NCBI RefSeq assembly: GCF_006715785.1
Contig: NZ_VFNX01000005.1
Coordinates: 1-64,000, forward strand
DNA from: Streptomyces puniciscabiei
GTDB taxonomy: Bacteria; Actinomycetota; Actinomycetes; Streptomycetales; Streptomycetaceae
Length of the DNA stretch: 64,000 nucleotides
Direction of reading: 5' to 3'
Part shown: piece by piece, positions 4,665 through 31,404 of the stretch
How positions within the stretch are numbered: the first letter of the stretch is position 1
How the letters are laid out: the number at the start of each line of letters is the position of its first letter
Notes under the pieces: generated by a model
Databases searched by the model: none
The model's input: the letters and a program-made list of their open reading frames with translations, nothing else
Told to the model about the DNA's origin: nothing
Program-made: the position numbers and the translations under genes

Positions 4665-5096
4665 TCAGTAGCCGCGGTACTGCTGGTTGTTGTACGGGTC
4701 CTGGTAGGGAGCCGGCGTGGGCCGCGGGGCGGCCGGGCGCATGGCCTCGTAACCCGTGCCCATGGGGCGCTGCTGCTGCGGGGCCTGCGGGCCGGGGTAG
4801 CCCCGCGGGGCGGCGGCCTGCTGCGGGATGTACGCCGTGGGTGCCTGCTGCAGCGGGGCGGGCTGCGGCGTCTGCGGGTAGCCGTAGGCCGGGGCCTGCG
4901 GGGAGGGCGCCGCCGGGAGGGCGGGCAGGGCCGACGGCAGGGCGGGCAGGCTGCTGCCCGTGTCGTAGGCGGCGGGGACCCGGATCGGGGCGATCTGCGG
5001 AGTACCGCGCTCGGCGACGAGCGAGTCGTAGATCGGGGTGTCCGGGAAGGAGGCGGAGTAGTAGCCGCCACCATAAGTGGAGCGGGGGGAGGTCAT
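4665..5096 (-). CDS. DUF6643-like Pro/Gln/Tyr-rich protein
   Basis: 143 residues starting MTSPRSTYGGGYYSASFPDT. After a conserved N-terminal segment ending near PQIAPIRVP, the rest is low-complexity Pro, Ala, Gln and Tyr, ending QYRGY. I recognise the N-terminus as that of a short Streptomyces family, DUF6643, from memory. No enzymatic motif, signal peptide or membrane segment is visible, and the protein is probably disordered. It is transcribed divergently from the TerD-family gene across a 286-bp intergenic region. Confidence 0.7.
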   Translation of the reverse strand: MTSPRSTYGGGYYSASFPDTPIYDSLVAERGTPQIAPIRVPAAYDTGSSLPALPSALPALPAAPSPQAPAYGYPQTPQPAPLQQAPTAYIPQQAAAPRGYPGPQAPQQQRPMGTGYEAMRPAAPRPTPAPYQDPYNNQQYRGY

Positions 5097-5382
5097 GGCA
5101 CATAAGTTAAGCCCACGATGTGCTCGTTGGGGAGACCGATAAGAGGGTTGTTTTCCGTGTCCGCAGTGACGCGGGATCCCCAATCCGAGCGAACTTGGCA
5201 AAAAAGGACGTCCGTGCGCGCTTTAATCGTGTAAAGAGCGAGGTCCTGCGGGGTTACCGCCAGTTGACCGGCGATCCTCCCGCAGTGGTCGGGGAGTTCG
5301 CCGACACCGGCGAACAGGTTCTGCGGGTAGGGATGACCTGGACGACCGAGGGTGTACGAAGCCGACACGGATGGGGGTGGGC

Positions 5383-30571: not shown

Positions 30572-31130
30572 GCCGTCAGCAGACGGCCCGAGGCGTCCCC
30601 CTGGGAGCGCGTCCCGCACCGGAGAGACCGTTTCCCCGCCGGGCACCCGTTCCGCGCCGCTGCCCCCTCGACCACCGTCCGGCTGAAGCCATCCCGCCAC
30701 CGCACACATCGAGCCGTAGGCCGCCAGGTCCTGGTGCGACAGCAGCAGCGCCCCGGTAACTGCAACATCCGGCAGGCCGACGGTCGCGCGCCGGGACTCG
30801 AAGCCGCACTCGATGGCAACGGCGATCAGATCGTCCTTGTCTCTCGAGCGGGACATGGGATTCGCCGAAGCCCTGCGTCGCGCGGGCGGTTCCGACCCGG
30901 TCACATGACGGCGGCGTCGACGAGACCCAGGTCGGGCAGGCCGAGCGAGCAGATTCGCTCGGCCTCGTCGGCAGACAGGCCGAAGTGCCGCAGCAGTCCC
31001 CGGACGACCAGGTCTCGCCTTCAGCCTCGGCACCTTCGACGGCCGGTGGACGTGGCGGGGCCCGGGAGTCGTATCCAGCTCCCGGGCCCCTGGGGATGCC
31101 ACCCAATTGCGCACGCCGGCGGCGTTTAAG
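30572..31130. other. 559-bp region without a convincing gene; possible small remnant
   Basis: No ORF here has both a credible start and plausible protein sequence. On the minus strand, 30901-31017 encodes about 38 codons with normal-looking composition (LLRHFGLSADEAERICSLG, ending VDAAVM) after an in-frame stop and with no start codon. It may be the end of a lost gene. The region separates the TPR gene from the tRNA-like RNAs. Confidence 0.4.
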
Positions 31131-31241
31131 AGGACGGATCAGTCATCATGCCGTCGTGTTCTTCCTTTGAACTACCGCACCGTGAGAGAGGTGCAGGCGA
31201 GAGTCGAACTCGCATCCGACGGCGTTCGTCCGGCCTCCGTC
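31131..31241 (-). ncRNA. tRNA-like RNA with circularly permuted fold, unit 2 (Y RNA/YrlA-like)
   Basis: On the minus strand the parts of a tRNA occur in permuted order. Anticodon-stem 3' strand GCCGTC (31223-31218) is followed by a 4-base variable loop, T-stem GCGAG with loop TTCGACT and CTCGC, 3' acceptor strand CTGCACC, an 8-base linker, 5' acceptor strand GGTGCGG (one G-U pair), TA, D-arm GTTC-AAAGGAA-GAAC, and finally GACGGC (31155-31150), which pairs exactly with GCCGTC. Outside this, GACGGA can pair with TCCGTC. A normal tRNA would have the acceptor 5' strand first. YrlA-type bacterial Y RNAs carry such a closed-acceptor tRNA mimic; that assignment is inference. Confidence 0.8.
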
Positions 31242-31262
31242 GATCCGGCGATCGGCGGCGAT

Positions 31263-31404
31263 GCTGAGACTGGAGCGAGAGTCTGAGATTGACCACGGCT
31301 GCCTCTGCCGAGTTGGGCTACCCCGGCCCGTTGCGGATGTGTGCCGGGGGAAGGACTCGAACCTTCACTGTCACCGTGTCTTCAGGCTGAACTTCAGTGT
31401 CAGC
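31263..31404 (-). ncRNA. tRNA-like RNA with circularly permuted fold, unit 1 (Y RNA/YrlA-like)
   Basis: A second minus-strand element with the same permuted order. CACGG (31378-31374) pairs with CCGTG (31298-31294) as the anticodon-stem equivalent. Between them lie variable loop TGACAGT, T-stem GAAGG with loop TTCGAGT and CCTTC, 3' acceptor CCCCGGC, a 15-base linker, 5' acceptor GCCGGGG (perfect 7 bp), TA, and a D-arm with GCC/GGC stem and a GG-containing loop. An outer helix pairs GCTGA-C-ACTG with CAGT-C-TCAGC, closing the RNA in the way of a Y RNA terminal stem. It lies directly downstream of the DUF7873-like gene on the same strand. Confidence 0.8.

Follow-up and report, generated by a model that had tools for sequence, protein, structure and literature searches.

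RESULTS

A DUF7873 gene is followed by a locus with two closed tRNA-like domains

The window analyzed here, a 64-kb stretch of a Streptomyces puniciscabiei contig, carries on its minus strand a gene for a DUF7873 protein. Next to the gene lies a predicted RNA of ~370 nt (about 31430-31057 on the same strand, with ends estimated from sequence) that contains two tRNA-like domains, units 1 and 2 (Table 1). A sequence-only reading of the window had described a complete tRNA core in circularly permuted order on the minus strand at 31131-31241, the region of unit 2. Parsing of the parts bears this out, and the anticodon-stem equivalent pairs as described, over 7 bp rather than the 6 bp given there. 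The further helix that had been seen beyond the anticodon end corresponds to the outer stem of unit 2, followed by the closing stem P1.

Table 1 Features of the DUF7873 locus.
Feature	Position	Strand	Remarks
DUF7873 protein gene, 243 aa	31506..32237	minus	Pfam PF25283, E 3.9e-122; directly upstream of the RNA
Scaffold helix round unit 1	31263..31404	minus	RNAalifold
Unit 1	31276..31389	minus	closed permuted tRNA-like domain; YrlA 26.4 bits, E 0.002
T-arm, unit 1	31366-31350	minus	
Acceptor, unit 1	31349-31343 / 31327-31321	minus	7/7 pairs
D-arm, unit 1		minus	3-bp stem
Unit 2 with outer stems	31114..31250	minus	closed permuted tRNA-like domain; YrlA match, covariation
P1 closing stem	CGCCGG 31250-31245 / CCGGCG 31119-31114	minus	encloses outer stem of unit 2
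Outer stem, unit 2	GAGGCCGGA 31237-31229 / TCCGTCCTC 31138-31130	minus	one C-T mismatch in window sequence
Anticodon-stem equivalent, unit 2	GCCGTCG 31223-31217 / CGACGGC 31156-31150	minus	7 bp
T-arm, unit 2	31213-31197	minus	
Acceptor 3' strand, unit 2	CTGCACC 31196-31190	minus	8-nt linker before 5' strand
Acceptor 5' strand, unit 2	GGTGCGG 31181-31175	minus	
D-arm, unit 2	GTTC-AAAGGAA-GAAC 31172-31158	minus	
Conserved 3' sequence around CTTAAACG	31120..31134	minus	unpaired in consensus (alignment)
Hairpin with GGAUA loop	31057..31090	minus	probably near RNA 3' end

The Rfam YrlA model aligned to unit 2 (31243-31128) over its full model length, with 31.8 bits and E values of 5.3e-5 in a 601-base stretch and 1.8e-4 in a whole-genome search. 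YrlA gave the strongest Rfam match in that stretch two times, and the six other matches had E values of at least 0.5. The resemblance to YrlA proposed by the sequence-only reading is visible in both units, but 31.8 and 26.4 bits are below the YrlA gathering score of 69. At gathering thresholds, no Rfam family was reported anywhere in the 64-kb window, and ARAGORN called neither a tRNA nor a tmRNA in it. Covariance model R1 gave unit 2 151.6 bits, which is partly a self-match as the model includes the window sequence. The fold of the single sequence was only slightly better than those of shuffled sequences (z = -1.72), so the case for this structure rests on comparison and not on folding energy.

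The two units are set in a conserved scaffold. Around unit 1, GCTGA (31404-31400) and CTGA (31397-31394) pair with TCAGC (31267-31263) and the CCAG stretch preceding it. Among 80 named genome loci (79 from Streptomyces, S. echinatus and S. diastatochromogenes included, and one from Kitasatospora), a strict CTTAAACG-type pattern follows the last unit in 64; the viral count is 10 of 22. The GGAUA-loop hairpin lies 3' of the last unit in 66/113 loci, including 48 of the 80 from genomes, and its frequency among background windows was 20/1251. No such hairpin was seen in loci of Klebsiella, Rhizobium or Vibrio phages. All ten single-unit loci inspected have a short insert in place of unit 1 and keep the scaffold sequence, indicating that the unit 1 head is a module. 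Among the loci compared, unit 2 is the more constant arm, and unit 1 is an accessory arm that has been lost in some Streptomyces.

Covariation supports both units and the scaffold

A MAFFT alignment of 37 homologous stretches was built from sequence alone. RNAalifold recovered both T-arms, both acceptor stems, the outer stem of unit 2, P1 and the scaffold helix round unit 1. In a structure of 67 pairs taken from the window and RNAalifold, 92.5% of 2447 cells were paired. The corresponding values were 80.4% for shuffles and 39-45% for slid versions. None of 500 shuffles and no slid version matched the observed pairing; because the rows are related, and mostly from Streptomyces, the shuffles, unlike the slid control, overstate the evidence.

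At least one change on both sides was seen in 50 of the 67 pairs. Compensatory change across homologous loci, by which the sequence-only reading had proposed to judge the fold, is present in the helices of unit 2: two-sided changes occur in 7/7 acceptor pairs, 4/5 T-stem pairs, 6/7 pairs of the anticodon-stem equivalent, 8/9 outer-stem pairs and 2/4 D-stem pairs. All seven acceptor pairs of unit 1 also show such changes, as do five of the nine pairs of the scaffold helix, where 94.9% of cells are paired. For unit 1, support for the anticodon-stem equivalent is weak, with about 60% of cells paired, and the D-stem had no two-sided change among the 37 rows.

The two heads are of different tRNA types and encode CCA in many relatives

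Units were classed by the D-stem, which has 3 bp in type 1 and a fourth pair in type 2. Of the 80 genome loci, the 54 in which two units were parsed all have the order 1-2, and the remaining 26, with a single parsed unit, have type 2. Beyond the 80 loci, 20 of 21 two-unit loci (the window counted) follow the same order; in the exception, L176, the second unit lacks the fourth D-stem pair. The types also differ in the base that follows the acceptor. In type 1 this is A in 43/49 distinct units of the 80 loci and 21/28 elsewhere, and in type 2 it is T or G in 63/63 and 22/26, respectively. Compared by T-arm, D-arm and discriminator, type 1 most resembles tRNA-Leu (23/31 distinct units of the 80 loci, 18/28 others) and type 2 tRNA-Gly (21/40 in the 80 loci, mixed elsewhere), a likeness that serves only as a hint since the method was right for 88 of 172 real tRNAs. 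Taken across loci, the two units are consistently of different tRNA types.

Of the 54 distinct units that come from beyond the 80 loci, and that include the two of the window, 26 encode CCA immediately after the discriminator; each other single offset has CCA in none or one of them. The corresponding figures for the 80 loci are 17/49 distinct copies of unit 1 and 0/63 of unit 2, and neither unit of the window encodes it. The encoded CCA is consistent with descent from a tRNA 3' end or with a function there. It does not simply follow tRNA-gene habit, since it is present where neighboring phage tRNAs mostly lack CCA (Mimi, GodonK, NiceHouse).

With CCA encoded in so many relatives, the acceptors may be opened by tRNA-end enzymes. 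RNase P and tRNA 3' enzymes would then remove the linker and leave a multi-piece RNA with CCA-bearing tRNA-like ends, as in permuted pre-tRNAs and two-piece tmRNA. These ends might be aminoacylated, and unit 1, Leu-like and with A73, would be a candidate substrate for LeuRS. An extract of PMC3978253 provides the precedent, in which RNase P and tRNase Z excise the intervening sequence of permuted pre-tRNAs. The position of the CCA, the Leu likeness of unit 1 and the wide range of acceptor linkers (4 to 78 nt) are consistent with such processing. The absence of CCA from unit 2 in the 80 loci and from both window units, its presence beside phage tRNAs that mostly lack it, and the lack of an anticodon speak against it, and we regard an opened RNA as unlikely.

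The RNA is linked to DUF7873

DUF7873 was present in 32 of 61 genomes, in 33 copies. A covariance model built from unit 2 and the scaffold was run on these 61 genomes and matched 146-263 nt downstream of all 33 copies on the same strand. The scores exceeded 100 bits at 31 copies and were 58.9 and 44.7 bits at the other two (the latter match ends at a contig end), partly by construction, because the model contains the window and probably some of the searched genomes. Away from DUF7873 there were many weaker matches in the 61 genomes, none above 51.3 bits. Ten of these were examined: tandem tRNA-Asn genes account for four, the TACTTC motif of Y RNAs is present at five, and one (G045) lies ~1 kb from a TROVE gene.

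The linkage also shows in the T-arm motif. It occurs within 500 nt downstream of DUF7873 in 80/80 genome loci (two copies in 55, one in 25), compared with 11 occurrences in 607 kb of remaining sequence on that strand. DUF7873 itself recurs in 80/80 loci and the other neighbors of the window locus in 0/80. The AlphaFold2 model of the DUF7873 protein has a mean pLDDT of 91.2, and structure comparisons found no clear fold match, so RNA binding by this protein is a guess from linkage.

The constant downstream, same-strand position at 33/33 copies would suit a cis-acting 3' UTR element that controls or stabilizes the DUF7873 mRNA, for example via trimming by tRNA enzymes. In viral locus L054 (5947-6244, minus), the sole such case noticed, the RNA is ~1.2 kb from DUF7873 and on the opposite strand. 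This shows that the RNA need not belong to the DUF7873 mRNA and favors its existence as a free RNA. The retention of two complete tRNA cores across phages also seems more than a UTR would need, and we consider a cis-acting role improbable.

The RNA differs from Ro60-associated Y RNAs

Bacterial Y RNA (YrlA, RF02553) shares with the DUF7873 RNA the permuted T-, acceptor and D-arms, the closed acceptor and the placement on an outer stem. According to an extract of PMC8394870, the basal stem of YrlA holds the Ro60-like protein, and its tRNA-like arm, which DusA and TruB modify, reaches PNPase. The partner is Ro60 there and DUF7873 here. Unlike YrlA, the DUF7873 RNA joins two domains in one molecule, has another scaffold, and in many relatives encodes CCA at the acceptor.

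A TROVE gene elsewhere in the genome had been named as something to look for, and one TROVE match was found, on contig C1 (L039:8283-9887), with two Y-like RNAs just upstream (L039:7880-8250); the DUF7873 RNA is on C5. Those TROVE-linked Y RNAs score 32.1 and 31.1 bits with the YrlA model, also below the gathering score, so failure to reach that score says little. A divergent YrlA that binds the genome's Ro60 in trans would be compatible with these data, with the full-length YrlA model matches and with the weak detection of Y RNAs by R1. The motif TACTTC 5' of the T-arm separates the two groups: it is present in 13 of 14 Streptomyces TROVE-linked units (one weaker case lacks it) and in 0 of 188 DUF7873-linked units. 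In a hand count of the 61 genomes, 23 have both protein families, nine DUF7873 only, 11 TROVE only and 18 neither. Since 9 of 32 DUF7873 genomes are without a TROVE match, DUF7873 does not require TROVE, although gaps in draft assemblies may conceal a few TROVE genes; conversely, 11 of 34 TROVE genomes are without DUF7873. By these comparisons the DUF7873 RNA is not an ordinary YrlA, and service to Ro60 in trans appears quite improbable. Of the earlier assignment to YrlA-like mimics, the closed permuted structure is supported; membership among the Ro60-binding Y RNAs is not.

TROVE lies on the same contig as DUF7873 in 4 of 23 viral records, and on viral contigs L052 and L059 within a few kb of it. 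In relatives, several TROVE-linked Y RNAs have acceptors closed by a short loop, for example TTCGG. L252, L253, L254, L255 and L261 carry TACTTC Y-type RNAs with no TROVE match on their contigs, possibly orphan Y RNAs or cases of a missed Ro60 gene. Extracts of two other sources mention predicted yrlA in some mycobacteria (PMC9569102) and, for a small number of jumbo phages, TROVE together with a tRNA-like partner (PMC7824862).

Comparison with permuted tRNA genes, tmRNA and other structured RNAs

Circularly permuted tRNA genes also place the 3' half before the 5' half, separate the acceptor strands by an intervening sequence and sometimes encode CCA. In the account given in an extract of PMC3978253, they occur in six algae and one archaeon and are joined at BHB motifs. 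The sequence-only reading had offered as its alternative a gene of this kind, cut and ligated into a translating tRNA. The order of parts and the CCA agree with this. The DUF7873 RNA, unlike such genes, has no anticodon loop, is set in a larger conserved RNA in bacteria and phages, and its anticodon ends run into conserved, covarying scaffold helices. A role in translation is very hard to credit for this RNA, given also the narrow distribution and BHB joining of the known cases.

Permuted (two-piece) tmRNA resembles the DUF7873 RNA in acceptor strands linked next to CCA and in a long helix that replaces the anticodon end. The DUF7873 RNA differs in its complete D-stems and its two tRNA domains, and neither ARAGORN nor Rfam (at gathering score) gave a tmRNA match at it. 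GOLLD, HEARO and others are large structured RNAs of phages and bacteria, some of them near tRNA arrays, and the likeness to them is that of large structured phage RNAs. Neither at the window's RNA nor at the units of 13 phage and plasmid loci did any Rfam family reach its gathering score.

Tandem or decayed tRNA genes can be dismissed almost completely as the source of the pattern, even though tandem real tRNAs do yield false matches, because ARAGORN found no tRNA in the window and the two acceptor strands of a unit pair mutually and covary. One such tandem array (L040:6642-7044; G000:C1 near 4842665) is the genome's best YrlA match, at 40.9 bits, and tandem tRNA-Asn genes likewise give false matches in L256-L259, a warning for searches for permuted mimics. 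In Gordonia phage GodonK (L173:1384-1912), an Rfam tmRNA match of 90.3 bits covers an annotated tRNA-His.

The gene and RNA are also carried by phages, and the gene by plasmids

In tblastn searches, DUF7873 was found in 73 of 50,697 phage records (Vibrio 29, Gordonia 12, Rhizobium 12, Klebsiella 7, Serratia 6, Arthrobacter 3, Pseudanabaena 2, Rhodococcus 1, Microcoleus 1) and 4 of 72,556 plasmid records. Among 296 genomes sampled across the phylum it was found in six, all of them Streptomyces, the genus of the window. The six phage proteins scanned were DUF7873 with E values of 1.8e-64 or better.

Closed units were parsed in 11 of 12 phage loci examined and in 20 of 22 distinct IMG/VR loci, with L054 added by covariance model; the parse requires at least six of seven acceptor pairs and is therefore no independent test of pairing. 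Only one unit was parsed in 13 of the 31 IMG/VR and phage loci that have a closed unit. The parse found no unit in viral locus L048, and the Vibrio phage locus has one unit of uncertain type. In Microcoleus phage locus L177, a HEARO RNA (4950-5159) lies directly 3' of DUF7873, where the tRNA units would be expected, and no clear unit was seen. The RNA region is mostly unannotated in the phage records examined, with small reading frames over parts of it in some. In Klebsiella phage FBKp24 (L183:4018-4097), a 'tRNA-Sup-TTA' annotated inside the DUF7873 RNA region is probably a misread tRNA-like unit.

As judged from these searches, the gene and RNA pair is common to Streptomyces and to phages of actinobacteria, cyanobacteria and proteobacteria. 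Its recurrence, both in relatives and in viruses whose hosts are very different bacteria, makes it probable that the pair is a real and widespread tRNA-imitating machine.

DISCUSSION

Sequence comparison establishes the structure of the DUF7873 RNA, its conservation, its two D-arm types and its linkage to DUF7873. Based on these data, we consider it fairly probable that the locus encodes a noncoding ~370-nt RNA in which a conserved scaffold holds two closed, circularly permuted tRNA-like domains, and that this RNA forms with DUF7873 a ribonucleoprotein (RNP) that recruits tRNA-handling enzymes. In this proposed mechanism, DUF7873 would bind the scaffold, perhaps at the GGAUA hairpin, to form the RNP. 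The tRNA-like arms, closed at the acceptor and unable to act as plain tRNAs, would then recruit tRNA-binding enzymes that modify, process the ends of, or degrade their targets. Such docking is modeled by analogy on the tRNA-like arm of YrlA, which brings partners to the Ro60 RNP in the account excerpted from PMC8394870. Phages and bacteria would use this RNP to redirect tRNA-handling enzymes.

A bolder possibility, which we regard as speculative and rather unlikely, is a third tRNA-mimic system of bacteria and phages beside tmRNA and the Ro60 Y RNAs. Here tRNA-end enzymes would open both of the different heads at their NCCA ends. The product would be an RNA in several pieces carrying at most two acceptor ends, of which one would be Leu-type. 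DUF7873 would hold the pieces together and use this RNA, perhaps for aminoacyl transfer or to sense, during infection, what state the tRNA machinery is in.

The name DUF7873 was absent from the literature searched, and no description of its pairing with a tRNA-mimic RNA was found in the titles and abstract openings covered by the searches. In the passages of papers that were compared, including excerpts of PMC10085705 and PMC7790460, closed tRNA mimics are tied to Ro60. The RNA, which escapes every Rfam family at gathering score, is apparently undescribed.

For the fairly probable RNP described above, the same trick of a closed mimic would be at work with an unrelated protein, in doubled form, in both Streptomyces and phages. 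DUF7873, a Pfam family of unknown function, gains with this RNA its first testable partner, and the phages that carry the pair offer material for asking what tRNA mimics are for.
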